Of a DNA stretch of 34,549 nucleotides, positions 5,853-28,190 are shown one piece after another. The notes beneath the pieces are model-generated. The model ran no database searches and was not told the DNA's origin. It saw only the letters and a list, made by a program, of their open reading frames with translations. How positions within the stretch are numbered: position 1 is the first letter of the stretch; each line of letters opens with the position of its first letter. Source of the stretch: Acaryochloris sp. IP29b_bin.176 (GTDB lineage Bacteria; Cyanobacteriota; Cyanobacteriia; Thermosynechococcales; Thermosynechococcaceae); contig JANQPU010000362.1 of assembly GCA_028285315.1 (NCBI GenBank), forward strand, positions 1 to 34,549, in the 5' to 3' direction. A program made the position numbers and the translations under genes.

Positions 5853-6131
5853 TTAGCCGTCGCCTTCTGCTTTAGGCGCTGCGGCGGCGGGCTTAGCGGC
5901 GGGCTTCTTACCCCCTTTGGGTGCTTCTACTTCTTCGAGTTCGTGAAGTCCGAAGTTATTGGTATTGACACCAGCAGCCGTACCGCTGATTCCGTTGTAA
6001 TTACAGGTATCAAAACGAACAATCACAGGATACTTAATACCGCTTTGATCAACGGAGGCAACGGTGCCGATTTGACGAAACCAGTAAGACTCCGGGCGGA
6101 GAATTTTAACCTTAGAACCGCGTTGAACCAT
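5853..6131 (-). CDS. psaE: Photosystem I reaction centre subunit IV (PsaE)
   Basis: A 92-residue stromal-side subunit of photosystem I that helps dock ferredoxin and supports cyclic electron flow. The SH3-like barrel core is seen in full: [16 protein letters not shown], then GTVASVD, then [17 protein letters not shown], then [11 protein letters not shown]. After this core (about 68 residues) there is an Ala/Pro/Lys tail of roughly 24 residues, longer than in compact PsaE proteins but known in several cyanobacteria. The start is ATG 6131-6129 with AAGG about 10 bases upstream. The upstream region holds a 14-bp AT palindrome at 6213-6226 and a 14-bp motif at 6160-6173 that recurs upstream of sasA. 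Confidence 0.97.
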
Positions 6132-6159
6132 GAATCTTTTACCTTATTGAAATTGCAAA

Positions 6160-6173
6160 CAAAGCATTGATCT
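6160..6173 (-). promoter_or_regulatory. 14-bp motif upstream of psaE, repeated upstream of sasA
   Basis: On the minus (coding) strand the sequence reads AGATCAATGCTTTG. It lies 29-42 bases upstream of the psaE start. An exact copy in the same orientation lies at 7573-7586, about 120 bases upstream of sasA. Its function is unknown; it could be a shared regulatory site or chance. Confidence 0.3.
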
Positions 6174-6282
6174 CAGCCTACTATGGTCTTGGCGCAGTCC
6201 TATCCTAAAATCTATAAAATTTTATAACTATCGTGAAAATTGATAAATATTCCACGCGGGCGCATCTTTCTGGGGATCCCAA

Positions 6283-7452
6283 CTACCGATAAACCGGCAG
6301 CGTAAAGTGGAAGCAACTGCCATGATGAGGGGCAGAATCCACCCAAATCTCACCGTAATGGTTACCCACAATCCGCTTGCAGAGGGCTAGCCCCATCCCA
6401 TAACCCGCTTGATCTTGATCTCGGTCTAACCGATATTGATTGTCAAAAATGTATTGTTGTTTTTCCAAGGGGATTCCCAAGCCATTGTCGCAAATACTCA
6501 CCTGCACCTTTTGAGTGGTGCGATGCAAGATAGATAATTTAATCTCCCCACCCTCTGGAGTATATTTCATGGCGTTATCTAACAGGTTGAGAATCACCTG
6601 CTGCACCTGATCCACATCGGCATGGACATTGGGGATATCCGGAGGAATATCACTTTCTAAAACCTGAGACTTGGCCTTGAGCACGTTATGGACTCTGAGC
6701 GCAATTTCTTGACAGAGTCCACTTAAGTCCAGTTGCTTAGGATGAGTTTTGAGCGCAAGCTCACTCCCTTGAGAGGCTTCCAACAGATTTGTAATCATCC
6801 GCTCAATAATTTGGGTTTGGGCATGCGCATGTTTCGTCAAACGTTGGATCAGGGCAGGGGAAAGATCTTTAATGATCTCATTGTCTTCATCCCATTGCCC
6901 GTTCAGCGTCTCTAGGGCGATGGTTGCAGCCGTTAATGGATTGCGCAGATCATGAGCTAGCATGGCAATCATCCGATCTTTAAACCTGAGTTGATCTTGT
7001 AACGCCTCATTTTCTTGCCGCAACTGAAACATTTGATCGGAGAGCTGCATGAGTTGAGCAGCATCAGCAAAGGAGGTTGTATCTGTCGCCAAGTCCATCT
7101 GATCGTCAAGCAGGCTAGCAGATAAAGAATGTTGCCAATAGGGCCAGGATTCCTCTAGCTGAGCGACCAAGTTACTGCCTGCCAAAATATGCCGAGGTTC
7201 AGGTCGGATCTTGACTAAAGCGGGGGTGGCCACCAATTTGTAATGTTCTACTAAGTAAGGCTGTTCCGAAACTTCAACGACATGCAGCTCAAAGTCACAA
7301 TCGGGTTTGAGTGTATCGAGATATTGAGATATTTGATGAATCTGCTCTTTAGCTGTTGTGCGTTTGTCAACAAACAACAGCAGTTGTAGTGAAGCATCTG
7401 ACTTAATTACAGATTTCAGATGTTCAGTGGGGGTCTCGGAAGATGATCTCAT
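6283..7452 (-). CDS. sasA: Adaptive-response sensory histidine kinase SasA
   Basis: A 389-residue histidine kinase that reads the KaiC clock state and phosphorylates the response regulator RpaA in cyanobacteria. Residues 15-105 form the KaiB-like thioredoxin-fold sensor (LQLLLFVDKRT, then FELHVVEVSEQPYLVEHYK, then VATPALVKI). A coiled linker at about 130-160 precedes the HisKA box MLAHDLRNPLTA with phospho-acceptor His167. The HATPase domain shows the N box (LLDNAMKYTPEGG), G1 box (CDNGLGIP) and G2 box (GYGMGLALCKRI). The start is ATG 7452-7450. No kaiABC or rpaA gene is in the window, which is usual because these genes are generally unlinked. The gene is on the same strand as psaE, but 151 bases separate them. 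Confidence 0.95.
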   Translation of the reverse strand: MRSSSETPTEHLKSVIKSDASLQLLLFVDKRTTAKEQIHQISQYLDTLKPDCDFELHVVEVSEQPYLVEHYKLVATPALVKIRPEPRHILAGSNLVAQLEESWPYWQHSLSASLLDDQMDLATDTTSFADAAQLMQLSDQMFQLRQENEALQDQLRFKDRMIAMLAHDLRNPLTAATIALETLNGQWDEDNEIIKDLSPALIQRLTKHAHAQTQIIERMITNLLEASQGSELALKTHPKQLDLSGLCQEIALRVHNVLKAKSQVLESDIPPDIPNVHADVDQVQQVILNLLDNAMKYTPEGGEIKLSILHRTTQKVQVSICDNGLGIPLEKQQYIFDNQYRLDRDQDQAGYGMGLALCKRIVGNHYGEIWVDSAPHHGSCFHFTLPVYR

Positions 7453-7572
7453 TCCGGCGATTCAGATCAGAACACAATGGATATGGGAATGGTCGGTATG
7501 TGATGCCAATGCATGACTCACAATAACGGATTTAACTTCATATTAGTTGACAATGTCCCTTGCAGGATCAAG

Positions 7573-7586
7573 CAAAGCATTGATCT
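7573..7586 (-). promoter_or_regulatory. Second copy of the psaE/sasA upstream 14-bp motif
   Basis: An exact copy of AGATCAATGCTTTG on the minus strand, upstream of sasA. The copy near psaE is in the same orientation. It lies in the 184-base gap between the WD40 gene stop and sasA, where the sasA promoter is expected. Confidence 0.3.
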
Positions 7587-7636
7587 TGATACCTGAACTC
7601 ATAAGCACATCTTAAGAGTACCCTTATCCGCTGATT

Positions 7637-10600
7637 TTAATTCTGAGCACAGGGATTTGTTTGATCAGGATGTTGCTGTTGATACGTCTGTAGCCATTGA
7701 CATCCTCGCTGCAATAGCTGGGAGAGGGTGCCAGTTTGCCAGATCCGGATCACATCATCTTTCCCCACTGTAATCAACGATTTGCCATCGGCTGCAAACT
7801 GTAGGCTATAGACGGCTCCTTGATGCCCCATCAGTTCCGCTAATTGCTGCCCCTTGGCGGTCCAAATTTTGACAATCCCATCTTGCCCTGAGGTGGCCAG
7901 GCGCTGGCCATCCGCACTGAGCACCAGGCGAAGAATATCGTTGGGATGACTCTGAAACTGATGTTGCAGCTGACCTTTGACGGACCAATATTTGACTGAA
8001 CCGTCTTTCCCCACCGTTACGAGTTGCCGACCATTCGGTGTAAAGCGCACATCACTCAGCCAACCTTGATCAGCCTTAAACTGACCTAGTCGCTTGCCAG
8101 CGGGTGTCCAGAGTTTGATCAGTCCTTCTTTGCCTGCAGTCACCAGTTGCTGACCATCTGGGCTAAAGCGGATGGCCCATAGGGGCTGGGTAGATGCCTC
8201 AAATTGACGGTGTTCTTTCGACTTAAAATCCCATAGATGGACGGTGCCATCATTGGCGGCAGCGGCTAGCATCTCGCCATTGGGGGCATAACTAAGCGAA
8301 TATACTCCGTTTTTATCAACAAGATGGTCTTCTAGTTGACGACCTTGCAAATTCCACATGCGGACATGTCCATCTTCCCCTGCGGTTGCGATTTGTTTTT
8401 GATCAGGGCTGAACAAAACGTCATTGCCCCGATTATGGGCTTCGGCTGCCCAAAGCAGTTTGCCGGTGCGATCCCACAGCCGTAGCTTGCCGTCTTTGCC
8501 CGTTGTCGCAAGGGTCTCTTGCTGGGGATGAAGGGCGACGCTCCAAATACTTGTATGTTGGCCTGCCCATTGCTTCTGGCCAGCTATGTTCCATAAATGG
8601 AGGCTGCCATCTCTGCCTGTCGTCAATAGATTTTGACCATCAGGACTGAAGCTAGCGCTACTCACCTGTCCAGCATGCCCTTTGAGTTCTGCCAGTTTTC
8701 TCCCGGCAAAGTCCCAAATTCGAATCGTACTGTCTTCACCTAGCGTGACCAGTTTTTGTCCTGTGGGGCTGGCATCAACCAGATAGAGAGAGGTTTGACT
8801 GCCTCGCCATACATTTAAAGGCTGGTTACTAGACGCACTCCACAGGCGAATCAGGCCATCCGTACCGACCATGGCAAACCGTTGGTTTTGTTGGCTTGAG
8901 GGAGTGGTTGCAGAGGATGGATTAGGTAGGAAGTTAACACTATTAAGCTTGAGGTTGGGATTGATACGGCTTTTCCATTCCCTCAGTTTCTGGCCTGATA
9001 GTGTCCAGGTTTGCATCGTCCCGTCTGTCCCGACGGTAACGACGGTTTGCCCATCGGGATTGAAACTCAAACTACTCACGGATCCATTATTTGCAGTAAA
9101 TTTGGCCAGCTGCTGACCTGTTTGATTCCAGATATAGACTTGGCCATCGGTAGAAGCCGTAGCAAATTGGTCTCGACTAGGGTTAAATCGAATACTTCTA
9201 AGTCTGCCTATCTTTTGGGGAACGGTGGATTTAAGATCACCCTCCGCATCCCAAAATTGGAGCTGCCCCACTGGGGTAATGGTCAAAATCCGATCCTTTT
9301 TGAGGAACGCAGCAAACCTCACTCCTTTAGCATTCGCTTGAAACGCTTGCAGCTGTTCACCGATTGGAGACCAAATACGAACATAGCCGTCTTTGCCTGC
9401 TGTGATCAGCTTTTCACTATCGGGACTAAAGGAACCACTATAAATCCGCCCCTTATGTCCCTGCCAGGTATTGGTTTCATAAATGTTGTCTAGAATGCTT
9501 TGCAGTACAAATAGGGGTTTGACGGTGGGATAGTCCTGTAAGGGACGTTTGGCGGGCACCAAGTCTTGTAGCTTTTGGCCCAGCTCAATCGCAGATTGCA
9601 AGGCTTGCAGCTGGTCGGTGGGAAACTGCCGCAGAGTAATCACCCCTTCCTGTTCCAACGCTAGACTTTGCTCTGATTCTTGCAGGTCTCGGCCCGTGCG
9701 AATGCCAACGGCAATGGCTAGAACGGAGATACCGGAGACGAGTGCCAAGGCTGCGATCGCAACTCTAACAATTCGACGGGCCTTGCGATGGGCCTGTGTC
9801 AAAATTTGGTTGGCTTCTTCAATCGCTTTCTTAGACTGGCGTTCGGTCGCAAGGCTAACTTCAACCTCCTGCTTATCGGCGTCTTGACTCGCACTTAAAA
9901 ACTGATAGTCCTGGTCGCTTAAGCTTTTGGTGTTGGACCAGGCCAAGGCTTCTTTTAAGGCTTGGCCTCGCAGTAGCCGGGACATATCTTGTCCATCGGA
10001 CCGTAACCAAGATTGCATCACATCGGCATAGGGTCGCAACTGCGCCAGCTGCCGTTCAACCCAAGCCAAATCAAAGATCTGGGCATAAATACGATTGTGA
10101 ATATGGAGCTGTCCCTGCCGCTGAATCACCAATCCTGACAACAGAAGTTCCATCTGTTCAGAACTATTGTCTGTGGGAATACCCACTTGCCAATCGGGTT
10201 GATCGAGAAGCTTTTGATAGCTGCCGAGGAGACGGCCTGCTCGCTTTTCGTTTTGCAGCAAGCGATTGCGGATCGTTCTCAGGTGCTCTGGTTCATCTTG
10301 GGCTTCCCAACTGTGGAGAATTTTCGACTGCACCAGCTCAGTAACGGTTTGTGCTTCTGTATCTGGAAGGATGGTTGGTCCTGTGGCTAAGAACTTACAC
10401 AGCTTTTGGGTTAAAAAAGGTTGACCGTTAGTCCACTCTAAAACCGCTTTCACCAGCCGTTCTGGATACTCGGACACTTCACTTAACCCCAAGGTGAGGG
10501 GGCGGATTTCTGAGGATTGAAAGCCCCGCAGGTGAATAGCTCGGCCAATATTAAAGGGGGTACGCTGCTGGTCTTGAATCAGTTGCGAGGGCGTGGCGAC

Positions 10601-11182
10601 GCCGAACAAGGCAAAGGTGAGTCGCTTATAGTCATCCCGATCCACCCGGCTGTTGTAATGAGCCCGCAGCAGAGCAAAGAAATCGTCGGCAGAAAAGCTA
10701 AGGCTGAGCAAGCTATCGACTTCATCAATAAAGATCACCATGTTCTGGGGAACATGGGCAAACAGCACCTGTTCGATAAAGTCCGTGAGGCGTTGGGCGG
10801 GGGATAACAAGGTGCGATCGCGCCACCAAGACCGCAACTGAAATTTGTCTCCCAGCTTAAATTCACTGACCAAGGCCCCAATCAAACTGGCGTACCATTG
10901 CTCAGCAGTAATATTCTGGCTACCAATTTTGGTGACATCAATGGAGGCACAGGCAAACCCTTCCACGGTTAACCGCTTCATGGTGTGGACCCGCAAGCTG
11001 GACTTGCCCATCTGGCGAGCCGTCAGTACGTAGCAGAATTCCCCCGCTTTTAGGGCCTGATATAAGTCACGATCGGCCTGGCGAACCACATAGGTGCGAG
11101 CATCGACCGGTAAACTACCCCCAACCTGATAGGGATTAATGGGGGATGTGTCTGGCGTCCAGCCTGAAACAGAGGTATCCAT
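7637..11182 (-). CDS. AAA-type ATPase-transmembrane-WD40 protein (14 WD40 repeats)
   Basis: A 1181-residue multidomain protein. Residues about 15-380 form an AAA_35-like ATPase found mainly in cyanobacteria, with the atypical P-loop TARQMGKSS (about 56-64) and Walker [10 protein letters not shown] (about 152-160). A helical region ending in a charged coiled coil (about 435-470) leads into one membrane helix (about 474-496). After a short helical stretch there are 14 WD40 repeats (about 575-1160), many of the form FSPDGxxLVTAGKDGxxxxW, enough for two seven-bladed propellers. The likely role is a membrane-anchored signalling scaffold whose propellers sense or bind partners, with the ATPase as switch; no substrate can be named. 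ATG 11182 is preferred over TTG 11188, although neither has a clear ribosome binding site. It follows the kinase-TIR-ATPase gene by 59 bases, and the two probably form an operon. Confidence 0.9.
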
Positions 11183-11241
11183 AGGCAAACCATAACCAGC
11201 AATGGGCCGTCCCTAGAAGACGAGCCAATAGTCCCAAAATA

Positions 11242-13836
11242 TCACCCTGATTCGCTGGCCCCTTTATCAGCAGCCACCGTGGCAAAATATTGACGATACA
11301 AATCGCAGCGAGGTTGCGCCTCATTGCCAACCAACCGGATCAGTCCTAAGCTATGCAGCTTGAACAACACAGACGGCTCTAGGGAGATCGCCTGCTCAGA
11401 CGTGACGACGGAGATGAAAGCTTGAGCCAATTGGGCATGCTGTTGCAAATTCCACCAATGGCCCCTCAGGTGATCGCGGAATAGTCCTGCTTCGGTCGGT
11501 GCCGTTTCGAGCAGTTGCTCCACACTCATATCCCCCTTAGCCACGTGATACAAAGCCAACCGAATTAGATAGGGATGCCCCCCGATCAGGGTTTGAAGCT
11601 GGGAAATTTGGGCTTCATCCCAATCTAGGTTGTGCAGCTCCGCCAGTTGACTAATCTGGGCCAAGGAGAATTCGGGTAAGTCAATCGGTAGGCCGACATT
11701 AAAGGGGGACTGGTTGGTATTGAGGGGAATATAGACCTCCGTGGCATGAACCACAATCAGCCGTAGCTTTTGCCAGATCTCCTGATTTTTGGCTTCCTCA
11801 TGCCAGGCCCGTAACAGGCCAAAGAAGTCGCTGGCAATTTCAGGATATTCAAATACTCGATCGACTTCATCCAGAGCCAGGGTGAGTGGACCATCTAATT
11901 CAGGCAGAATATATTCTTCAAAATAAGCAGTGCAATTGTATTTACTGCCAAAAATATCGTCCCAAGTCTCGGCAATCCGGTTAGGCAAGCGCAATCGACG
12001 GCTGACGCTAGCACAGAGCCACTGCAACAGCTTATCTAAATCCGTAAACACCTTGCCGTCCGCCAGTTGCAGATTCAAGGACACCGTATTTAACCCTTGG
12101 CTGGAGGCTTCATGGAGGATGCGGGCCATCAGCGAGGTTTTGCCCATTTGCCGAGGGGCTTTGATCCGAATTAAGGAACCCGGTTGCACCACCGTTTCCG
12201 CACAGCGCAGTTCTATCGGTGGCCGCTCAATATAAAACGCAGATGCCACATTCACCTGCCCTTCCGGTAACTCTGGCTCAGCAACAGGTAAGGGTGGCGC
12301 ATCCGATCCCTGTTTAGGCGGCGGTACGGTCGGAAACGATCCAGAACTGCCTTGATCAGCCGTTTTGGTTAAGGAGTCACTGGCATCTAAGGCCGATAAA
12401 ATATCTTGAACCAAGTTGGGGGTATCACTGGCAGACCGCCAAATGCGCTGCTGTAGGCGATGGAGATAGCCTCGCAGTTCATAATTCAAGGAGCCATCCA
12501 TGGGCAAATCCACCCGAATGGGCACAATTTGCGGTCGCTGTTCTGCACGATTTTGATGAAGTGCTTTAACCGCTCGCACTTCCTGCAGCATCAGCTCGCT
12601 ATGGGCTGAGGCCCGCGACAACAGCAGAATATAAAAGTCACAGGCTTTGAGGGCATGATCAATATGCTGTGCCCAATTCTCTTTTAGCTCCAGGCTCTGG
12701 GTAGACATAAACGGCTGGTAACCCGCCCCTTTCACGGCTTCAAATAACTCCTTGGCCACCTGCAGCTCCGGTTCTCGGTTTAAAGCACTGATAAAGACCT
12801 GGCTAGTCACTTCCACAAAGGGTTGAGTGGCGCTCTCAGGATCGGCGGTGAGGGGCTCTGATCCTAGAGAGTTACTGGGGAAATCGGCAGGACGCGCCAC
12901 TTGCGGTGTCGTCTGATAGCTGCGTTCTCCGGCCGAACCCGGTTCACCTGCCCACAGGTTTTGCACGGGCGATCGCAACATCTTACCGACTTTTTTAAAC
13001 CATCCCGACGCAGGTTGGGCTTGGAGTTCTTTGAGAACATCTTCTGCGGATTGATACCGATATTGGAAGTGGTAGCGGACCATTTGCTGCAGCACATCCC
13101 CTAAGACTGGGCTCACCGGCACTTCTTCCTGCCAGTCAATCTCGCCTTGGGCCGTTTGGGTAAATTGGGTCGGATTTTTGCCAATAAAAGCCTCGATACC
13201 TATCATTCCTAAGGCATAGAGATCGCTATTGGCTCGGGGGCGGCCTTGGGCCTGTTCAGGAGCCATATAGCCAGGGGTGCCAATAGCAATTGTTCCTCCC
13301 ACAGGCAAGGGCTGATGGGGATCGCTGCTCAGTTCTTTGCGCAGCTGCTTGACAGCCCCAAAGTCGATTAAGACCAAACGACCATCCTGCTGCCGACGAA
13401 TAATATTTTCGGGTTTGATATCCCGGTGAATGACATTGAATTGGTTAATAAAGGTCAGGATGGACAGGATGTCCTGCAATAGTTGGGTGACCTGTTCTTC
13501 TGACCATCGACAGCCCTCTGGTAATTCTTTGCGCAGGAGGTGACCGGGGATATATTCTTGGACGAGATAAAACTCTTGTTTTTCTTCGAAGTAGGCTAGT
13601 AATCGTGGAATCTGATCGTGATTCCCCAGCTTCTCCAGCATGACGGCTTCTCGTTCAAAGAGAGACCGGGCTTTGGGCAGAAACTCAGGATCTCGTTTTG
13701 CTGGTTTGAGATGTTTGACCACACATTGAGGACGCTCAGGACGGTGAATATCCACAGCCAGATACGTCTGGCCAAAACTACCGCCGCCTAGAGTTTCTTG
13801 AACTTGATATCGTCCACCGAGGGTTCGACCGAGCAT
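11242..13836 (-). CDS. Ser/Thr protein kinase-TIR-AAA ATPase fusion
   Basis: An 864-residue cytoplasmic fusion. Residues 8-270 form a Hanks-type kinase with all key elements: glycine loop GGGSFG (17-22), Lys41, HRDIKPEN with catalytic Asp139, DFG 158-160 and MAPEQ 191-195. After a low-complexity linker, residues about 345-445 look like a TIR domain: SQVFIS, a GYQPFMST strand, WAQHIDHALKACDFYILLLS, then SELMLQEVRAVKAL, where Glu419 sits at the position of the family catalytic Glu, and IVPIRVDL. A second Pro-rich linker leads to an AAA_35-like ATPase with P-loop APRQMGKTS (560-568) and Walker B LALDEVDRV (653-661). The start is ATG 13836-13834. Whether the TIR domain degrades NAD or only mediates contacts cannot be read from sequence. 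The downstream gene carries a sibling ATPase domain. Confidence 0.9.
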   Translation of the reverse strand: MLGRTLGGRYQVQETLGGGSFGQTYLAVDIHRPERPQCVVKHLKPAKRDPEFLPKARSLFEREAVMLEKLGNHDQIPRLLAYFEEKQEFYLVQEYIPGHLLRKELPEGCRWSEEQVTQLLQDILSILTFINQFNVIHRDIKPENIIRRQQDGRLVLIDFGAVKQLRKELSSDPHQPLPVGGTIAIGTPGYMAPEQAQGRPRANSDLYALGMIGIEAFIGKNPTQFTQTAQGEIDWQEEVPVSPVLGDVLQQMVRYHFQYRYQSAEDVLKELQAQPASGWFKKVGKMLRSPVQNLWAGEPGSAGERSYQTTPQVARPADFPSNSLGSEPLTADPESATQPFVEVTSQVFISALNREPELQVAKELFEAVKGAGYQPFMSTQSLELKENWAQHIDHALKACDFYILLLSRASAHSELMLQEVRAVKALHQNRAEQRPQIVPIRVDLPMDGSLNYELRGYLHRLQQRIWRSASDTPNLVQDILSALDASDSLTKTADQGSSGSFPTVPPPKQGSDAPPLPVAEPELPEGQVNVASAFYIERPPIELRCAETVVQPGSLIRIKAPRQMGKTSLMARILHEASSQGLNTVSLNLQLADGKVFTDLDKLLQWLCASVSRRLRLPNRIAETWDDIFGSKYNCTAYFEEYILPELDGPLTLALDEVDRVFEYPEIASDFFGLLRAWHEEAKNQEIWQKLRLIVVHATEVYIPLNTNQSPFNVGLPIDLPEFSLAQISQLAELHNLDWDEAQISQLQTLIGGHPYLIRLALYHVAKGDMSVEQLLETAPTEAGLFRDHLRGHWWNLQQHAQLAQAFISVVTSEQAISLEPSVLFKLHSLGLIRLVGNEAQPRCDLYRQYFATVAADKGASESG

Positions 13837-13962
13837 AATCTAGAATGCTTGAGTGAGGGATGTACTATCTCTGAGCGACCACTACAGACTATTCAGGGTT
13901 CTGTAATAGAACGATTGTCATGGGTTAGGTGGGCAAAGAGGAGGTGGGATGGTCGGCAAATA

Positions 13963-14015
13963 CCAAAACCCAACCGTATCCTAACTGCTTGTGGATACGG
14001 TTGTAGTGATTTTGG
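13963..14015. repeat. Inverted repeat (11-bp perfect arms with partial outer stem), possible terminator
   Basis: CAACCGTATCC at 13971-13981 pairs perfectly with GGATACGGTTG at 13993-14003 across an 11-base loop. An outer CCAAAA (13963-13968) can pair with TTTTGG (14010-14015). It lies 47 bases past the stop of the minus-strand gene ending at 14062. Read on that strand the stem is followed by a GGTTTTGG stretch rather than a clean T run, so terminator function is only possible. It is also about 130 bases upstream of the kinase gene start. Confidence 0.5.
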
Positions 14016-14061
14016 CATCGTTAAGGTTTGAAAAAACTCATAGTAGGGTTTAGCCAAGACT

Positions 14062-14946
14062 CTATCGACGCCGCATCATCGGTCTAACAGTTTTGATGCG
14101 GCGCAAGGGTCGCTTCCTAACCGGGGAACGTCGGAGGGTGGGACGCAGGCGTCGACCCGTTGATTTAATCCGCCGCTGATTCTTGCGCAAGCGTTTCCCT
14201 AGGGACTTGATTTGGCGGCGATTAGATTTGATTTGTTTTCGCAGCAGCTTACGGCGAGCGCTGGGCTTGACCCGCTTCACCCGTCGAGCCCCTGGCTTTA
14301 GCCGAACCCGTTTCTTTGGAGAAGCCTTTTTTGTCTGGAGTCTCGTTTTACGTATCAAGCCTTTGGGTGCCTTGGAAGGAGGCTTAACGGCTGGAGTCGG
14401 CACTAAGACTTTTTCTTCTGGAATGACGGGTAACACTTCCTCTTCGGGGTCGTCTAGACCAGGATCTGGGACTTCGCCAAAATCTTCATCTGGTGGAAAT
14501 GCCCCCTCATTTTCTGAAGAACCGATTTCAATCAGGGGGCCTCCTGAACCGATATTGATATTGACATTGATAGAGGGGCCGTTGGAGGCTGGTGTCTCTT
14601 CTTCCGCTAACTCTGTGTCTGCATCGTCTGCATCGGCAAATTCGTCTTCGGAAAGGGCATCAGCGGCGCAGGGCTCAGTCTCTTCTACTGCATGAGCCTC
14701 ACCGCTAGGTTCAACTTCGGTCTCCTCACTTTCGCCAGCCGTAGGTAGGCAATCGTCCGTAAGGGATGGTTCGATTAATTCAGTGGGTTCGGTCTCTAGA
14801 GCAATAGTAGTGGCTTCGGTTGGATTGGGATTTGTCTCTGAAGCGAGGCTGGCAAGAGGATTGAACCCGACCACCAAGCAAGCCAAGAGGAAGACTTGCA
14901 GTTTTTGAGGGGCACGGTGAGTTGCAGCAGTTTGTTTCAGCATCAT
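14062..14946 (-). CDS. Exported protein with acidic N-half and strongly basic C-half
   Basis: A 294-residue protein of unrecognised family. Residues 1-36 look like a Sec signal peptide: a basic start, the hydrophobic core VFLLACLVVGF, and a cleavage-like site after LASLAS. Residues 37-178 contain about 44 Asp/Glu and no Lys or Arg by my count. Residues 191-294 contain about 48 Lys/Arg in 104 residues and no Asp or Glu. The basic half includes a 14-residue near-repeat (242-255 and 256-269, pattern NRRQIKSLGKRLRK). A glycine/asparagine patch (INVNINIGSGG) sits between the charged regions. The start is ATG 14946 with AAGGA seven bases upstream. It is divergent from the sigma-factor gene. A cell-envelope or polyanion-binding role is a guess. 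Confidence 0.7.
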   Translation of the reverse strand: MMLKQTAATHRAPQKLQVFLLACLVVGFNPLASLASETNPNPTEATTIALETEPTELIEPSLTDDCLPTAGESEETEVEPSGEAHAVEETEPCAADALSEDEFADADDADTELAEEETPASNGPSINVNINIGSGGPLIEIGSSENEGAFPPDEDFGEVPDPGLDDPEEEVLPVIPEEKVLVPTPAVKPPSKAPKGLIRKTRLQTKKASPKKRVRLKPGARRVKRVKPSARRKLLRKQIKSNRRQIKSLGKRLRKNQRRIKSTGRRLRPTLRRSPVRKRPLRRIKTVRPMMRRR

Positions 14947-15046
14947 TAAAGTTCCTTGTAGTCGTCAGCGTTGAGAAGAATTAGCTTGTACTGTTTTCTT
15001 AGGGCCAACGCGGTTGGTTTATGCACGCTGCTGAACATTGGGATAC

Positions 15047-16267
15047 ATGCAACCTCGAACTGCACTGCTGGCAATCTTTTCCACCTTTCTGCAATTTGAG
15101 GCGGATCATGTCCAAACCTGGGCCAGTGATCCAAAGTTGCGGCGCAGTATGCAGATCCAGCTTGAACAATCCCAGAAAGCGGATCTATCGGCAAAGTTTT
15201 GGTCGCTGTACTGGCATAAGCGATGGCGATCGGAATTTCAGCCCGCCTTGCGAAAGGTTTCGGCAGGCCATTTATCGGCTTATCTACAAGAAACCTGCTA
15301 CTGGACGGCTCAGAAAACGGCGACTCGATTTAGCAGCAGCCGATATGGCGTGAGAGATTATTTTCAAATTGCGATGGCGCAAGTGGAGAAAATTCTCAAG
15401 GGGTTCAACTCCGATCAGGGCTTTAATCTGCAAAATTATGCCAGCGCTACCTTCGCCAGCCTGATGCGGGAGACGCTACGGCAACGCCGCGAAATTGATA
15501 TTTGCAGTGATTGGGCTTTGCTGCGGAAGCTGAGCCAAAAGCGGCTGGTCGAAGCTTTGAACAATAATGGTGTACCCCAGGAAACGATTGATCGTTACGT
15601 TTTGGCCTGGACTAGCTTTAAGGCAATTTATGTTCCTCAACAGGCAACGGGAACTCAGAAATTGGAGAAACCAACGGCTGAGGTTTGGGCTGCGATCGCA
15701 ACCCAATACAACCAAGACCGTACCACTCAACTGCCCCCGAACACTGCTGCCATCACCATTGAGGGTCTCGAAACCACCTTAATGACCTGTGCTAAAGCAG
15801 CCCGAGCTTATCTTTACCCGGCTCAAATTTCCATCAATACGCCTAGGCCAGGACAAGATGCTGGAGAATTTCTCGATCAGTTACCCAATACAGAGCAAGC
15901 GTCTTTGCTAGAGGAGATGATTGCCACTGAAGAAGTGCAAACCCGGCAAACCCAGTATCAACAAGTTGGTGAGGTGCTAGCCGCCGCGATTCAGGCTCTG
16001 GATCAGCCCTCTCAATCCCTCTTGCAGCTCTACTACTCCCAAGCCTATACCCAACAGCAAATTGCCGAGAAATTGGAGATGAAGCAGTACACCATCTCGC
16101 GACGATTAACCAAACTCCGCAAGACGCTGTTGACGGCTTTAGCCACCTGGAGCCAAGAGACTCTGCATATTTCACCCGACTCGGACGTACTCAAAGCTAT
16201 GAGTTCTTCCCTGGAAGAATGGCTGGCAGGACACTACGGTGAGCCGGCCCCACTACCCCTGCATTAG
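15047..16267 (+). CDS. Sigma-70-like RNA polymerase sigma factor, divergent
   Basis: A 406-residue protein. Near the C-terminus (about 317-370) is a typical region 4 helix-turn-helix: ALDQPSQSLLQLYYSQAYTQQQIAEKL, then YTISRRLTKLRKTLL. The middle part (about 105-165) has a region 2-like segment, NLQNYASATFASLMRETLRQRREID, corresponding to regions 2.3-2.4. The protein is longer than usual ECF sigma factors and lacks the classical region 1.2/3 pattern, so it belongs to the divergent cyanobacterial sigma-like group. ATG 15047 is used; a TTG three codons upstream is possible. The DUF1822 gene begins four bases after its stop, suggesting translational coupling. Its target promoters are unknown. Confidence 0.75.
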   Translation: MQPRTALLAIFSTFLQFEADHVQTWASDPKLRRSMQIQLEQSQKADLSAKFWSLYWHKRWRSEFQPALRKVSAGHLSAYLQETCYWTAQKTATRFSSSRYGVRDYFQIAMAQVEKILKGFNSDQGFNLQNYASATFASLMRETLRQRREIDICSDWALLRKLSQKRLVEALNNNGVPQETIDRYVLAWTSFKAIYVPQQATGTQKLEKPTAEVWAAIATQYNQDRTTQLPPNTAAITIEGLETTLMTCAKAARAYLYPAQISINTPRPGQDAGEFLDQLPNTEQASLLEEMIATEEVQTRQTQYQQVGEVLAAAIQALDQPSQSLLQLYYSQAYTQQQIAEKLEMKQYTISRRLTKLRKTLLTALATWSQETLHISPDSDVLKAMSSSLEEWLAGHYGEPAPLPLH

Positions 16268-16271
16268 AGTG

Positions 16272-17426
16272 ATGATCATGACGTCTGATTTAGCCTTATT
16301 TGATTCCACCTATTTAGAAATTGATCCGAACCTCCAGGCCCAGGCTTGGCAACAAAACGACGGCCCTAGCTGCTGGCAGGCTTATTTAAATCAGCTCTGT
16401 TTGGAAACAGTGATTCCCTGGCTACGGGAAGATTATGATCTGCAAGCGATACCCGCGTTAAAATTGCCGTCTTTGCAAAGTATTTGGGCTGTGGTGACGG
16501 GGACGCCGATTCAGGTAGGGGCACAAAAATTAGTCCTGATTCCCACGGAAACGATTGATTTAGATGAATTTCGGGTTCCGCAAGAATGGGTGGATATTCC
16601 CAACTGGATTACGGATTATTATGTGGCGGCGCAGGTGAATCCTGATGAGGGTTGGGTGAGACTCGGTGGGTTTACCAAACACTTACAGCTTAAGGCACAG
16701 GGGGCGTATGATTGGCGCGATCGCACTTACACCCTCAACGATACCGATCTCACTTCGGACCTGAATGTGCTCTGGCTCACCCAGCAATTCAATCCCCAAG
16801 AGATGACCCAAGCAGAGGTCAATGCTTTACCTGCACTATCCAAAGTCCAAGCCGATCAACTCATTCAACGCCTCGGCAATTCAGAACTCGTTACCCCTCG
16901 CTTGTCGATTCCTTTTGAACAATGGGGAAGCTTAATGGCTCATGGCGGTTGGCGACAACGCCTCGCTGCCCAACGATATGGAATGGTTGAACAGCAGTCA
17001 GTCAGACAATGGCTACAAACAGGGATGACGAATTTTGCCCAACAGCTGGGCTGGCAACCGATTACTCTACAACCTCAACTGTCGGCTGCTCGTGGTGATC
17101 AACCCTCAATGCCCATTTCTGCGATCTCGCGGCAGTTGCAGATCGAGGGACAACCCTATGAACTCAATGTTCATGTTGTGGCGACTGAGCTCACGACAGT
17201 ATGGCGGTTTGAACTCCGACCTGTAACCCCCGGTGTCGCTATTCCAAGAGGTTTTGTGCTCAGACTGTTGACTGAGGATCTGGCATCGTTTGAGGGAAAT
17301 GAAGACCAAGCTACTGCACCTGTCGATCGGTTATATATTGATGTCGCTCTAGAGGCGGGAGAAGGGCTCGTTTGGATGATAGAACCTCAACCCAACCAGT
17401 TCGATCAAGAAATTCTACGGTTTTAG
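16272..17426 (+). CDS. DUF1822 family protein
   Basis: A 384-residue protein matching the cyanobacterial DUF1822 pattern: an opening LEIDP-NLQAQAW-QQN segment, CWQAYLNQLCLETVIPWLRED at about 27-47, the LPSLQSIWAVVTGTPI strand, an EFRVPQEWVDIPNW-DYYVAAQVNPDEGWVRLGGF domain, and a C-terminal beta-rich part ending VWMIEPQP. Function is unknown. From general knowledge, such genes often follow sigma-factor-like genes and precede CHASE2/CHAT or two-partner-secretion genes in cyanobacteria; only the sigma partner is present here. ATG 16272 is preferred because it sits just after the sigma stop; a GTG at 16239 would give an overlapping, less typical start, and ATG 16278 is also possible. Confidence 0.8.
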   Translation: MIMTSDLALFDSTYLEIDPNLQAQAWQQNDGPSCWQAYLNQLCLETVIPWLREDYDLQAIPALKLPSLQSIWAVVTGTPIQVGAQKLVLIPTETIDLDEFRVPQEWVDIPNWITDYYVAAQVNPDEGWVRLGGFTKHLQLKAQGAYDWRDRTYTLNDTDLTSDLNVLWLTQQFNPQEMTQAEVNALPALSKVQADQLIQRLGNSELVTPRLSIPFEQWGSLMAHGGWRQRLAAQRYGMVEQQSVRQWLQTGMTNFAQQLGWQPITLQPQLSAARGDQPSMPISAISRQLQIEGQPYELNVHVVATELTTVWRFELRPVTPGVAIPRGFVLRLLTEDLASFEGNEDQATAPVDRLYIDVALEAGEGLVWMIEPQPNQFDQEILRF

Positions 17427-20402: not shown

Positions 20403-23400
20403 TTAGATAGGAGCATAGTCTTGGATAGACAGGTCTGCCAGATCAACCGTAACCCCTCTCAAAATCATTAGAGTTTGCTCTGAATCAATCAAGGAGATGC
20501 GAGTATCTCCATCATCGGTCGTGGCACTAAGTTGACCTAAGGTTAACCCTCCAGCAAGACCTAAGGTATCCAGGTCAACATCAAAATCCAGAACTGTATC
20601 TAGACCTTGACCGATCTCGACGACGAACCAGTCCGCACCAGATCCACCGGATAGCCAATCTGCCCCTTGACCCCCGACTAAGGTGTCGTCCCCGGCACCG
20701 CCGAAGAGCTTATCGGCTCCTGGACCACCTGTTAGCAAGTCGTTATCGGCACCACCATACAGAGTGTCTTTGCCACGGCCCCCCATGAGGGTGTCATTGC
20801 CAGCATCGCCTAAGAGCCGATCTCTGCCCCGATTACCCGCTATCTGATCGTCGCCGCCACGGCTAAATAAGATATCTCGGCCTCGCAAGCCTTTGATATC
20901 ATCTGCTTCAGCCGTTCCCCGGAGGATATCCCGACGGTTGGTGCCCACAATTTCATTGAAGGTAGGCATCACCATATCAATGACCATATCATCTCTAAAA
21001 TCGAGATTCTGAATTCGGGTATCTTCAGCGGGGTCTGTTTCTGAGGCGGCAAAAGCAGGAGTGGCTAGATCTGCATCAGCAGGGAAGTTAGCGGCAAGAT
21101 ACTCGGCTAGGGCATCTTGCTCTGTGCCTGGATCTGCAAACGTAGCAACACCCGGATCGGTCAGCACATCGGGTAAGTCAATCCGATTGGCGTCTGGCCC
21201 GGTGGGGAAGGGATAACCGTCGCCACCATCCGCCAAAAAGTTAAGGGTGACAATGCGGAAGGTGCGGCTGGCATCCCCCACAATCTCTCCGTTTTGGACA
21301 ACAACATCGATGTCATTGCCATTCTCATCGGTAATGACTAAGGACTGCACTCGATCACCCACAGGCGCATCAGGGTCAAAACTGAACTGCACGCCAGCGA
21401 CTTGGGGGAACTGACCAGGAGTGGCCCCATCGGCAATCGCCGCCACACTATGCTCAATCACCTCTAGCAGTTGATCGGCGGTCAATGTCAGCAGCGTCAG
21501 GCTATTATTAAAGCGCAGGGAGTTGTCAATGTCGAGCTGAGAGATTTCGCCTTCCGCCTTACCAGAGACAGGGTTAGCCTGCGGAGGCAACTCATTACCA
21601 TTAGCATCAATTTCACCAATAGGAGCACGGATGCCACCTCCGTTTTTGAGGGAAACAACAACCGTATCGTCAAAGGTTTTTGCAGCTGCTAAGTTGGCAT
21701 CTGCCGTCAGGTTGCCTAGATTAGTTTCTTCGGTACGGACACTTTCGCGACGACCATCGATAAATACTTCCGAAAGCCCGAAAACATTGCCATCCTGGGT
21801 AGCTACCACATCAGAGACGGCATCGGTGAGCTGCTGGACATTGGTGGCTTTGTCTGAGGATGCGATCGCATCCCCTATATCCGTCGTGCCATAGACAGTA
21901 TTGACCACTTCATCAGTAGTGGCATAAGCCCCACTGACCGCTGGGTCAATGCTGTTGGTAATGATGTTGCCATCGGCATCAAACTCCAGCACCAAGCGAC
22001 CCAGATAGCTGTACTCCCCATCTGTACTGACAACCAATACAGGGTTACCACTGGCATCCGTGGTTTCAAAGGGATAGTCCCCTGCGGCCACATCTCCCGG
22101 TCGAAGGACATCGGTTGAGTCCGCTAGGAGGGTATCTGAGCCCCCCGCAATAATCACATCAACGCCATCTAAGAGACCCGCCAGTTCTTGCTCTAAGGCA
22201 ATCTGCTGCAAGTGAGATACCAAGATGATTTTGTTAATGCCCAGGTTGCGGAGACGATCCACTTCTGGCTGTAGGGCTTCGGCTAAGGCTGCCATGTCAT
22301 TGGTTTGGGGACCAATGACCGTTGTCCCCGTGGGAGAGGAAATACTTTCGAGTAACTGCGTCGTGGCCCCAATTACCCCAATCTGTTCGCCTCCTTCTTC
22401 AATAATGGTGGACGGGGCAATCTTGGGGGTCGTTGTTCCAGCCAGAGACTCCTCTGGACCCGTTCGGAACGCGGTATTCACTAAAATATCGTTGGTGAAT
22501 ACATCACTTAAATCTGCATCACCGGAGAAATCGAGATTGGCCGACAGATAGGGGAATAAGGCACCTACCGAGCGATCATCTCCCAGACCTGGATCGCGGA
22601 AGTCGGGTTCGATAATGCTTTCAAACGTATCAGATCCTAAATCAAACTCATGGTTGCCAACCGCCGAGGCATCAAAGCCAATCAAGTTCATGATTGAGAT
22701 ATCGACGCGACCGCCCCCTTCTCGCAATCCGGCATAGAAGTCGTCAACGGCATCGCCGTCCAGATCGGCGGGTAAACCAAACAGGTCATTGTAAAGATCA
22801 TTGAAGAGGCCGCTATCACGAAACGCGGTGCGATCACCCGCCGCATTGAAGAAGGGACCGGCCAGATAGTTATCACCTGCCGACAGGATCACCGTGTTCT
22901 CAAACTCATCTTCAAAGAAATCGGTCAGTGCCGCAAAGTTAGGAGCGCGGCCAATGGCATCTACCCCACCCTCTAAATCAGAGGCATGGAGAATTTGCAA
23001 TGTGAAGGTATCAGAGCTACTACCGCCCCCATTATCATCTTCTAGGGTGAATCGACCGACGATAGGCTCATGATCGCTGGCGACCACCTGATCTGCAAAA
23101 AGAGCCCGGCTATCATCTCGGACAAAGTCATTGTTGACATGAACAATATCGAATTCTGCCCCCTCTGCCAGCGAATTCGTGGCGAACTGATGATCCAGCA
23201 CTTGGGCATTGCCATCAAAAATGAAGGTGTAGGCATCATCCGCAGCTACTGCCTGAGGGACCAAACTCGTTAAGACCTGCTCATCCCCCACACCTGGCAA
23301 TATTTCCTGTAAGTCGTTGGTGGTGTCAAAGGTATTCAGATCGCCAGCCACAATGATATTGGCGGCTGGATCTTCAGCCAATTGAGCATCAACAAAATCG

Positions 23401-26400
23401 TTAATAGCTTGGGCTTGGGCTTCCCGTTCCTCCTCTGCCGCTTGGATAAAGGGTTGGGTGGCTCCAAAAATTGGCGAGGACCCAAACCGCGACGAGAAGT
23501 GATTGTTAATCACCTGTACGGTTTGACCCTTGAACTCGAAATTCGCGGCTAAGGGGGTCCGACTGCCCGCAAAGGCATCTGGATTGCTAGCTCCCGCTGC
23601 AGCCAGGACCTCTGGGGTGAGCAATTGCAGCGAGCTATCGTCTATCGCCACTCGGTCGGGGTTGAACAAAAAGGCATTGCGAATGTTACCGCCGGGTTGA
23701 CCGCCAAAGGCACCATCTTCAGGATCGATGGTGCGGAATTCATAGGTGGGTCCGCCTGCGGCTGCGATCGCATCCACGAGTATTTGCAACGTTCCATCTG
23801 CAGCAGTCGTGCCATCATCTACACTGCCAGAGTTATCCTGAATCTCTTGCAGCGCAATGATATCAGGGGCTTGGAGATTATTAACGATCTGAGTGGCTAA
23901 GCGTTCAAACTGGCCGTTGGCGACATCAGCCGAGCCATCTGCATCATTCGGATCCAGGTTGAGAACGTTGTAGCTCGCCACCGTTAGTTGAGTCTCAGTG
24001 CCCACTAGAGTCGTTGTTTCTGGCTCTAATCCACTCGGGGTGGGGGTAAATGCCTCTGTTACATTCACCTCAAAATTGCCGAAGCTATAGCCAACAACAC
24101 CTGTGACATCTCCCAGTTGATCGCCCACGTTGAGGCCAGGAGTATCAAAGCCATCTGGGAGGAGAGCGGGGTCAAATTGGAGTTGGATGCGCTCTGGGTT
24201 TTGATCGCCCGTGTTGTTAGGGCCAGAGACCAGATTCAGCGTGCCTCGGTTCGTGAGGGCATCCGTAGGAGACACATTGGCTCCTTGATTCGGAAGGGTA
24301 AAGGCTTCTGCCGAGAATGGGTTGAAGATCCGGGTCGGCGAGATGGCTACTGCATCTTCCACGGTGACTCGCATGCCTTCTAGACTTTCGAAGAAGTCGA
24401 TGGCATCGTTTTCTGGATCGTACTCACCTGGATCCATTTGCAGGTTAATGGGCAACTCATCCGCACTAATGACCGTGTTGTTGGAGGGTAGTCGACCGTT
24501 CTCACCGAGCAAGGTGGCGGTAGGCAGCGCATTACCGCTAGATAAGACCTCAACCGCGTCCAAACTCAGTTGCGTAATCGATAAGTTATTGGTGGAAGCC
24601 CCTCCAGGAATAAACTCTGACACTTGACCCGTCAGTTCCAGTTCATCCCCAATACTGACGGTGGGGTCACTTCCCGTAAACACAAAAATGCCGTCGGAAG
24701 TGGCGTCATTCTCATCGCCAGTGGCATCTTGGAGATAAAACCCATTGAAATCAACGGCTGTAACAATTCCCGTGGTCGTTACTGTCAATCCATTAAAGGC
24801 AGACAGATGACCTTCACCCTGAATGTCGTAGATCTTGACTTCAGGCGTAAATTCATAAACAGCAACGGTCTCACTTACCTCATTACTGATCACCAATAAG
24901 CTATTGCCGTTGGGACTGTCATCCGCAGCAATAAAGGTCAAACCCTCCGGGGCTATATCGGCATCATCGCGGATATATTGCAAGAATTCGGGGGCTGTAG
25001 GGTTAGTGACGTCATAGACCAGAACCCCGCCACCAGCTCGCTCAAGACCAATAAAGGCATAGGTGCGGTTCCCTACCTTGCCCACGGCTACGGCTTCGGG
25101 CTCAGCGCCTTTATTATCGGATCGACTATCAAATTCGGAAGGGTCTCCGTCATCGGCGTTGAATAAATCTGGAGCCAGTTCAGCGGTAATTTTGGCAATC
25201 TGATCGCCACTATCGAAGACTTGGTTGCCCACCTCATCCCAAATGCTGAAGGAGCGACCCCCATAGGAGAACAGCTGATCAAAGTCGCCATCTCCATCAA
25301 TATCACCGTCGATGGTGGAGACTTGCAGCCGCCCAAGCTGATCGTCTTGTTGCAAAGTCGCTGCATCAGGGAAGGCGGTTGGGTCTAGGGTCAAATCGGC
25401 GATGCGCTCGTCTTCACTGCGGGCATCCCCTTCGTTTGCCGTGATGTAGTACGTTTGGCCGTTGGCTTCAAAGGATGCGATCGCATCTGGTTGATACAAC
25501 CCAAACACCGGATGATTTTGCAGATTGATACCCCCATCGCGATCGCTTGGATCCAGCGTATTTCCCTCACCAAATTGAATAAAGCCCAGCGTGATTGGCG
25601 TTGGATCAGGATTTTGCAGCACATTTCCATCTAAGGGAATATCGCCTTCTGCCAGCCCAAAGTCATTGTCATTGAGGACCACCAAGGTGCCATCAGGAAG
25701 TAATGCCAAGCCTTCGGGCTTATCGCCAGCGAGGTAGCCAAGAGACGGTAAATTCGTGGTCTTAATTTTATTAACGGGTTGAAGTCCAGCAGCCAATAAC
25801 GAGTCAGCCGTTTGCTGCTCCAGCGTGCCCTCTTCAAAGATGCCAATTTCATCCTTATCCAGTGTTAGCAGGTTAGTTGCAGCGGAGATGTCAATTTCAA
25901 AAATAAACTTCTTGGCCGTCTCGCCAACCGCAGAATCCCGTTCAATGACATAGAATTTGCCATCGCCAGCAAACACAGCATCGCCGATCTTGTCCACTCT
26001 GCCTCCTGATCTCACGGCAGGGTCTTCCAAGAGATAAACGTATTCAGCAACGGGATTACCTGTTGCCGTATCAATCCCTAGGATTCGAATGACATCAGAA
26101 TTGTCAGATGCTGCGCGATCAGGATTGGCAAGGGGCGTTTGGATAAAGGCATAAAGAATTCCCGCCTCATCATCCAAGGCTACGGCTTCAAATCCCCGAT
26201 TGCGGCGACGGTTGATATATTCAGCAGGTAAGGTTTCCGTGCCAAAATTAACTTCTGTCTCGTCCTCATTATCGTCCCCACTGCTGGCTTGGGCTGCGGT
26301 CCCTTCCGGCACATACCGATTCAACAGTACGCCCTCCGGTGAGAACTGGTAAATCGCAGGCCGATACTCATCCACCATCCAGAAATTGCCATTGGCATCC

Positions 26401-28163
26401 TTCAAAATGCCTTCAAAATCGCCTCCCAAGGGATCAAAGGTCAGCGGGTTGCCAAATAAATCAACGGGTTGCTCATCAACGGCTTCGTTACTGATGTTGG
26501 AGCGTCCCGTGATCGGTGTGCCGTCATCTTGGGTGAGGAAAATCTGAGCGGCAATGCTGACACTCGTCAGATCAGGGGTAACTTCTAATTTGACAATCCG
26601 AGCTTGGTAATCCGGCAAGGCAAAGGGCCGCTCATTGATGTCGTCTCCATCCACATCTAAAGTCTCGGGATTAGGGCCGCGATCAGGAATGGTGTAAAAG
26701 ATGAGATTGCCTGAATCGGGGTCGGTACCCCCGAACCACAGTCCCGATAAACCGCCTAGCGGAATCTCCTGCCCTGCTGGTGTTGTGCCTAGACTGGGTA
26801 AGTCTTCTAAGGTCAGTTGGGTGAGTTGGGCAGGCCCACGGCTAAAATCTTTAGCCCCTAGAGGTAAGATGTCTGTCACGGCCGCCGTTGCTATATCCAC
26901 GACGGCAAACGCATTATTCTCCTGCAAGGTCACGAAAGCCGTTGTCCCATCGGTTGAAACGGAGATAAATTCGGGCTCGACATCTTCAGAGGTCGTTTTA
27001 TCGGGAAAAATACGAACACCTTTGGCCCTGAGTTCAGCTTCGCGTCCATCGAATGCGGTGAAATCAGCCGTTTGTACGGACAGATTATCGAATCCTGCAG
27101 ACAAATCAATAATGCTGATCGATCCAGCAGGATCAATATCATCCTCGGGTTCACCCTCATTCGCGACCAACACTTTGGTACCGTCCGGGGTGAAGGTAAG
27201 CATATCTGGTAAGGCACCCACTTCGATTTCACCTAGGATCTCACCCTCACTATTGAGAAACAAAACGGTGCCATTATTGGTGGCCGGATCGGCCTCAATA
27301 GCTACTGCAATAATGCCGTTACTAATGGCAACGCTATTGGCTCCCGCTCCGAAGCTGGATAAATCGATGGAAGTTAAGGCTTCTGGCTGAGTCGGATCGC
27401 TCAGGTCCACCACCTGTAATTCGGGTTTACCGGATACTAAAAAGAGTTTCTGAGAGGCGGCATCAAAGGCATTAATTTCAGCACCGTTATCCAGGGTAAT
27501 CCCTCCAATTTTGCTCAAGGGAACATCGGAACTGCCAGTGCCAGGATCACGATCACCGATTGTGAAGGGAGCTGTGGGCAAAGTTAGTGCTGAATTGTCT
27601 CCTGTCCAATTACTGGCATCGCTAATGGCTGCTAGGAGTTCGGTGGGAGTCCCGGTTACAGGACCACTGTAAACTGCGTTATCTACCTCTTGGGTAGGTC
27701 CAGCACCAGCCCCAACAGCAACGGCAGAAGTACCCACCACAAGATCGGGGGGCAGTGCCGATGTATTTGAAGAGGTCGCATCGGCTTGGAATTCCGTGCT
27801 GTTTGTTAATAGGGCAAACAGGAATGTGGGGTTTGTGGAGAGGCCCTGAAAGGCAATAATTTGATCCCCGCTGCTAGAAAGGGAAAACCCACTGGTTCCT
27901 ACCCCGGCATCATTATCAGCCGTGAAGTCCACATTATTATTAACGAAATTGATGACGGTCCCCGCCGTCAGGGCAGAGGGTGCAGTGTATTTCACGGCTC
28001 CTTCATTAGCTCGGAAACTGCCATCGCTGAGTACACCGCTATCGGTGAAGCGAATTTCAGTGCCCGCATCGATATCAACGAGCAACACAAAACTAAAGTC
28101 ATCAGGATTATCGGTGTTAACTCCGATAATTGCTATGTCACCAGCAGAGAGGGAAGTAGCCAT
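20403..28163 (-). CDS. Giant secreted multidomain phosphatase/nuclease with RTX repeats
   Basis: About 2586 residues, cysteine-free on reading through, with no Sec signal. Domains in order: a lamin-tail-like N-terminus (1-200); a choice-of-anchor I beta-propeller (about 220-1105) interrupted at about 443-866 by a phytase-like esterase domain ([40 protein letters not shown]); an OB-like strand region (about 1110-1200); an ExeM/NucH-type endonuclease (about 1390-1710) with LQEIQDN, INNHFSS, AGDLNTF and ASDHEP; a 5'-nucleotidase-like metallophosphatase (about 1725-2400) with SAGDNY, VGNHEFD and NGGGIRAP; then nine RTX nonapeptides (about 2435-2515) and a type I secretion-like C-terminus. It probably releases phosphate from extracellular nucleic acids and esters. 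ATG 28163 has AGGA six bases upstream; ATG 28169 is an alternative. Confidence 0.92.
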
Positions 28164-28190
28164 GAGCATTCCTAAACAAACAGTAAAACC

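Follow-up and report, generated by a model that had tools for sequence, protein, structure and literature searches.

Layout of the locus

The window analysed here, 34,549 nucleotides in length, spans an entire contig (C82) of a cyanobacterial assembly of 5.35 Mb in 438 contigs. Two consecutive minus-strand genes, referred to as gene A and gene B, form the locus under study, with gene A upstream of gene B according to the ORF calls (Table 1). Both ORFs lie where a preceding reading of this DNA from its letters and ORF translations (the sequence-only reading) had placed them, and the gap of 59 bases described there holds if gene B starts at the ATG. A scan of this gap revealed no terminator-like site between the genes, and promoter and terminator scans at the locus gave results no better than chance.

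Table 1 Features of genes A and B (window positions; residue ranges refer to the gene products).
Feature	Position	Strand	Description and evidence
Gene A	11242..13836	-	864 aa, Ser/Thr kinase - TIR - AAA_35 ATPase; putative effector/output partner, first of the pair; ORF and Pfam
Protein kinase domain, gene A aa 10-261	13054..13809	-	Pfam PF00069 (Pkinase), E 3e-36; K41, HRD and DFG intact
TIR domain, gene A aa 346-470	12427..12801	-	Pfam TIR_2 (aa 347-445), E 1.3e-12, above Pfam cut-off
Codon Glu419, predicted NADase catalytic glutamate	12580..12582	-	Invariant in 14 kinase-TIR relatives
Class A AAA_35 ATPase, gene A aa 523-852	11281..12270	-	PF14516, 511-514 bits; Walker A, Walker B, GGHP
Intergenic gap	11183..11241	.	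59 bases if gene B starts at ATG 11182; 53 if at TTG 11188
Gene B	7637..11188	-	1183 aa, AAA_35 ATPase - TM - WD40; putative sensor partner; ORF and Pfam
Class B AAA_35 ATPase, gene B aa 24-372	10073..11119	-	PF14516, 104 bits; RQMGKS, DExD, NGQP
Single transmembrane helix, gene B aa 476-494	9707..9763	-	Hydropathy 2.66; RKARR just before
About 14 WD40 blades, gene B aa 576-1165	7694..9463	-	Pfam WD40, E 6e-95, 12 separate stretches; predicted extracytoplasmic sensor

The pair is flanked on one side by sasA, fpg, a MoxR-type ATPase gene and an alpha-amylase gene, and on the other by genes for sigma-r4, DUF1822, DJ-1, a Sbt-type bicarbonate transporter family protein, an aminotransferase and a rhodanese. 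The gene of the sigma-70 region 4 protein overlaps the DUF1822 gene (15038-17426, plus strand); the two are oriented divergently to the pair, and relatives retain them. On the minus strand, positions 14062-14946 encode a protein of 294 aa whose start is signal-like, whose middle is acidic and whose tail is very basic and Arg/Lys-rich; it has no Pfam match, and genomes of the genus keep it upstream of the pair. Positions 20403-28169, also on the minus strand, encode a protein of 2588 aa that combines phytase-like, choice-of-anchor, endonuclease/phosphatase and 5'-nucleotidase C-terminal domains with RTX calcium-binding repeats, a domain content suggestive of a large secreted phosphatase. The syntenic block as a whole (window 5865-16304) recurs once more in this assembly (G000:C153:1-14000; L038), its kinase-TIR pair being 82% identical at the DNA level to that of the window over 10.5 kb including flanks. 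At this level of identity the second block is probably the copy of a co-assembled relative, the assembly being mixed, and it was not counted as a duplication.

Kinase, TIR and sibling ATPase domains

The kinase domain of gene A contains all the elements by which Hanks-type Ser/Thr kinases are recognised (G-x-G-x-F-G, K41, HRD and DFG). The sequence-only reading had described this kinase as intact, and its P-loop, Lys, HRD and DFG are indeed complete; these key residues, together with Glu419 of the TIR domain, are invariant in 14 of 14 kinase-TIR-AAA relatives. The model of full-length gene A is mediocre (pLDDT 66), matching PknB-type kinases and being useful for kinase matches only. An AlphaFold model of the TIR region, built from 47 relatives, has a pLDDT of 89.9, and its best matches in the PDB are TIR domains, including plant NLR TIRs, the TIR-APAZ of SPARTA, RUN1, SARM1 and AbTir, with RPS4-RRS1 TIR structures also among the matches; pentatricopeptide matches to the same region were discarded as repeat artefacts. 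As the closest solved structures are TIRs, the domain previously described as TIR-like, for which a non-TIR structure had been named as the refuting outcome, has a TIR fold by both Pfam TIR_2 and the model, and Glu419 was confirmed in its position as the acidic residue of the domain. The catalytic Glu is retained in 42 of the 47 TIRs of the A-type family. Sequence and model together support the TIR fold and catalytic Glu of gene A, with NADase activity as a prediction, and the loss of the residue from the other 5 of 47 TIRs suggests that some A-type TIRs may only scaffold.

Both gene products carry an ATPase scoring far above the gathering cut-off of Pfam AAA_35 (PF14516; 27 bits). Cyanobacterial matches to this profile form two score classes, class A at approximately 200-520 bits with a C-terminal ATPase and class B at approximately 90-130 bits with an N-terminal one. 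The classes are homologous over their full length (hhalign 99.8%, ~20% identity), bearing out the earlier view that the two genes contain the same kind of P-loop ATPase. The RQMGKS/T motif, previously considered unusual, is the normal Walker A of the AAA_35 family, GK being present in 141 of 142 class A and 122 of 122 class B sequences. GG-P is found in 140/142 class A sequences, and among the 122 class B sequences DE is conserved at 116/122 and 122/122, and the G and P of G-QP are each conserved at 122/122. Both classes possess the hallmarks of STAND NTPases (Walker A, Walker B and a C-terminal GxP). In a comparison with accepted STAND families (NACHT, NB-ARC, ATPase_2, nSTAND), the matches obtained, to AAA_16, NPHP3_N, nSTAND3, ATPase_2 and NACHT, were weak only. 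No relative of solved structure was found for these ATPases, recA matches having been rejected as repeat artefacts. The catalytic Glu is invariant in class B and replaced by Asn or Asp in 39 of 142 class A sequences, which suggests that class B may be an obligate ATPase and class A sometimes a passive partner.

Pairing, modularity and topology across relatives

Pairing of the two classes was surveyed in 69 cyanobacterial genomes of at least 95% completeness, spread over the class, with the window's own genome left out. Both classes were present in 39 genomes, class A alone in 0, class B alone in 2 and neither in 28 (Fisher 2.6e-17), and the copy numbers follow a 1:1 relationship, with 103 A and 108 B genes (rho 0.97). 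A class B gene lies within 5 kb of 81 of the 103 class A genes (~0.7 expected by chance), 72 of the 103 being directly upstream of B on the same strand in the operon-like order A then B, and the median gap is 19 bp for the 77 same-strand pairs. Adjacency is thus conserved in cyanobacteria, which was the check proposed with the sequence-only reading; the 22 class A genes without a B gene inside 5 kb count against the pair model. Partner co-evolution is evident from a mirror-tree correlation of 0.85 across 85 linked pairs, a value reached in 0 of 2000 within-genome shuffles of partners, which keep the species signal (mean 0.32, max 0.74). With divergent pairs removed, the correlation was 0.79 versus a shuffle maximum of 0.73.

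The kinase-TIR A gene and its B gene are widely separated in several relatives, genus g6 among them, and the g6 member G011 retains both. In other genera, the clades that hold the unlinked kinase-TIR A and B genes match those of the linked pair (support 0.997 for A and 0.976 for B), and a single 904-aa ORF fuses a B-ATPase, a guanylate cyclase and an A-ATPase (L189:3447-6158). Co-occurrence, adjacency, mirrored trees, matching unlinked clades and fusion, all drawn from comparison of sequences, make a functional partnership of A and B very likely, and we infer that the two are in physical contact. The kinase-TIR form is kept in 5 of 5 Thermosynechococcus-like genomes. In one of them, G018, the class B gene is interrupted by three in-frame stops (G018:C1:2216861-2217934; L233), a possible case of sensor decay, with kinase-TIR A remaining open, and this also counts against the pair model. 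Pairs extend beyond cyanobacteria to an Abditibacteriota plasmid, on which a TIR-AAA_A gene overlaps an AAA_B-PAS-GAF gene by 8 bp.

The domains attached to the two ATPases are modular. N-termini of class A (135 scanned) comprise TIR (46), kinase (32), CHAT (11), HTH_26 (11), HTH_3 (11), guanylate cyclase (7), trypsin (3) and LuxR (2). TIR is often positioned between another output and the ATPase, as in kinase-TIR, cyclase-TIR, CHAT-like-TIR and trypsin-TIR proteins (output labels beside TIR assigned by sequence motif), and is the sole recognised N-terminal domain in some relatives. In class B, the C-terminus is WD40 in 74 of 104 proteins scanned, with CHASE2, GAF, PAS, FHA, TPR, LRR-Roc-COR, kinase and periplasmic-binding domains among the others. 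One class B protein (L125:11300-12799) has a periplasmic-binding/ANF-receptor C-terminus, and plasmid pNsp_e of Nostoc sp. ATCC 53789 (L238:6064-12956) carries Trypco1 followed by trypsin-TIR-AAA_35 and then AAA_35-TM-WD40-Amidase_3. Given the variety of class A N-termini and class B C-termini, class A looks like the output and class B like the sensor.

The 14 WD40 repeats counted earlier in gene B are compatible with the 12 stretches found by Pfam, as ~590 aa at ~42 aa per blade agrees with 14 blades. Exactly one hydrophobic helix is present in 67 of 77 WD40-type B proteins, typically ~94 aa past the ATPase, and ~13% lack a TM at the threshold used, which is one of simple hydropathy rather than a trained predictor. 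The summed K+R before the helix exceeds that after it in 67 of 73 cases, an N-in/C-out bias. The helix is at about the same place in CHASE2-type and TPR-type B proteins, CHASE2 being an extracellular sensor domain (PMC5587647); of the 7 GAF-type proteins listed, 5 are without a helix and 2 have marginal ones at 1.62 and 1.63, while no helix is seen in the FHA type. The class B protein of pNsp_e has a peptidoglycan amidase (Amidase_3) beyond its WD40 part. The single TM, the inside-positive charge and the CHASE2, periplasmic-binding and amidase relatives indicate that the WD40 part of gene B probably lies outside the cytoplasm, facing the periplasm or lumen, a reading based on relatives and simple hydropathy that would make gene B a transmembrane receptor. 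WD40 propellers elsewhere are mostly cytoplasmic, which counts against such a placement.

All domains are under purifying selection, with omega of 0.02-0.05 for the kinase, TIR and ATPases and 0.07 for WD40. The WD40 part is the fastest-diverging main domain (84% identity to G002 versus 98% for the ATPases). Fast repeat turnover was rejected, as there are no DNA-level tandem repeats and omega is 0.07; the WD40 part evolves faster than the ATPase but is not under positive selection overall.

Proposed mechanism, rival explanations and known systems

We consider it reasonably probable that genes A and B belong to a widespread receptor system of two genes, built on STAND-type ATPases. Gene B would be a transmembrane sensor with its N-terminal AAA_35 ATPase in the cytoplasm, one helix across the membrane and WD40 in the periplasm or lumen, and gene A a cytoplasmic output protein whose C-terminal sibling AAA_35 ATPase carries the kinase and TIR. 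A ligand on the WD40 part would switch the gene B ATPase, which would hetero-oligomerise with that of gene A and cluster the N-terminal domains of the latter; the clustered kinase could then phosphorylate targets, and/or the TIR could adopt an active NAD-cleaving or scaffolding form. Signalling would run from B to A, with this clustering as its mechanism. The earlier proposal of a membrane-tethered sensor and a soluble effector is supported as regards the partners and refined in that WD40 is probably outside and the outputs are many and interchangeable, kinase and TIR among them.

The pair could instead be an anti-phage or self/non-self conflict system. WD40-B would then respond to an invader, and A would use NAD depletion together with phosphorylation to kill or arrest the cell, much as TIR-STAND defence proteins do. 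The TIR fold with its catalytic Glu is in keeping with this, as are the swapping of effectors on a fixed ATPase, which resembles predicted conflict systems (PMC7159879, PMC8195603), the occurrence of relatives on 63 plasmid records, and the Trypco1 gene adjoining two trypsin-TIR-ATPase relatives (one plasmid, one chromosomal). Trypco1 is a domain named from such predicted systems, and its place beside these relatives accords with the trypsin-Trypco rule (PMC7159879). The kinase part of gene A also scores against PADLOC kinases; however, these matches (to PD-T4-6/MAD6-type models) reflect the kinase fold only, gene B matches a HEAT model via its repeats, and no whole-protein PADLOC model matches across genes A and B. 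PADLOC matches in the flanks were generic only, one being to amylase and the rest to AAA in the contig's terminal gene, and neighbours such as sasA, fpg, MoxR, the bicarbonate-transporter-family gene and the aminotransferase are of a housekeeping kind, so the locus does not lie in a defence island. No relative of the pair was found in the viral contigs searched, on which ground viral or phage carriage was rejected, and phage matches, among those listed, cover the kinase region only. The kinase-TIR form is chromosomal, single-copy and apparently vertically inherited in small genomes, an outside-facing WD40 could not see phage products inside the cell, and we know of no defence phenotype for the pair. 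The conflict link is confined to distant relatives, namely the trypsin-effector versions adjoining Trypco1, and we regard a conflict role as unlikely here. The sequence-only reading had left the choice between a signalling and a conflict system; a signalling pair is the preferred reading here, and the conflict part is disfavoured by the housekeeping flanks, the apparently vertical inheritance and the lack of viral relatives.

A housekeeping pathway for stress signalling, with the kinase as output and the TIR as a non-enzymatic oligomerising adaptor, ranks somewhat above phage defence for this locus in our view, though we still find it doubtful. The fully intact kinase active site, the very strong purifying selection (omega ~0.03), the retention in all Thermosynechococcus-like genomes and the adaptor-like placement of TIR next to the ATPase, behind kinase, cyclase, CHAT or trypsin, all agree with it, but an adaptor would not need the Glu that most of these TIRs keep, and some relatives have no other recognised N-terminal domain. 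That A and B are two independent neighbouring multidomain proteins, adjacent through recent tandem duplication of an ATPase gene, is highly improbable: the ATPases are homologous, the genes adjacent and some A and B genes unlinked, but the two classes are distinct and ancient at ~20% identity, which argues against recent duplication, and the 1:1 copy number, the mirrored trees and the retention of both genes when unlinked would be unexpected of independent proteins, so that this explanation is largely refuted. Within the favoured two-gene receptor reading, we tentatively raise a more specific possibility, that of a transmembrane 'split NLR': a previously undescribed class, present in most cyanobacterial lineages, in which an obligate pair of sibling STAND-type ATPases joins an extracytoplasmic WD40 (or CHASE2, TPR or periplasmic-binding) sensor to a swappable cytoplasmic effector and would pass outside signals by hetero-oligomer assembly.

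Pfam treats AAA_35 (PF14516) as one family of unstated function, whereas two co-occurring classes with opposite architectures are distinguished here. The family is very likely the 'MNS clade (Npun2340/2341 family)' of STAND NTPases (Leipe, Koonin, Aravind 2004, as cited in PMC8195603), matched by description from the citing text: both are cyanobacterial STAND NTPases with effector N-termini that include TIR and kinase. The two Nostoc genes are numbered consecutively, as would be expected of an A-B pair, and AAA_35 was therefore probably seen already in 2004. The citing text in PMC8195603 names the Npun2340/2341 family solely among the NTPases that lectin-linked proteins may carry, and describes no two-class sensor/effector pair. 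A 2007 kinase survey placed tlr1460 of T. elongatus in a class with 'long unidentified C-terminal domains'; judging from gene order, tlr1460 may be the A gene of that organism. The literature searched contained no text on AAA_35 pairs, nor the two-class rule, co-evolution, module census or topology. The many genes annotated as cyanobacterial 'AAA-like domain-containing protein' can now be brought under one testable rule, that each effector ATPase has a matching sensor ATPase. Thermosynechococcus genomes have a single A and a single B, and the genus offers a simple model for studying what these ATPases sense and whether TIR domains signal outside defence.

Several known systems share features with the pair. 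The VMAP/MoxR-vWA ternary conflict systems (PMC7159879) have the same interchangeable kinase, TIR, trypsin and cyclase outputs as the A/B relatives, some of which adjoin Trypco1, but their MoxR-vWA-VMAP core is not part of the pair; no vWA or VMAP gene adjoins it in the window, where the MoxR-like gene is on the opposite strand and separated from the pair by sasA and fpg. Apaf-1, the bacterial AP-ATPase-WD40 proteins and NLRs likewise place a STAND-like ATPase between an effector and a repeat sensor, WD40 being the sensor in Apaf-1 (PMC7159879). In these proteins, however, effector, ATPase and sensor form one cytosolic polypeptide, while A/B distribute them between two sibling ATPases, of which one is predicted to be transmembrane. 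If WD40 is outside the cell membrane, the pair would represent a bacterial transmembrane receptor type based on apoptosis/NLR-like ATPases and distinct from two-component systems. Paired plant NLRs such as RPS4/RRS1 also consist of two neighbouring STAND proteins, of which one senses and one executes, with a TIR-based output. The plant and cyanobacterial pairs are not homologous, and the plant genes are divergent, their products being cytosolic and without a transmembrane sensor, but the modularity of sensors and outputs of A/B across cyanobacteria resembles that of split immune receptors.
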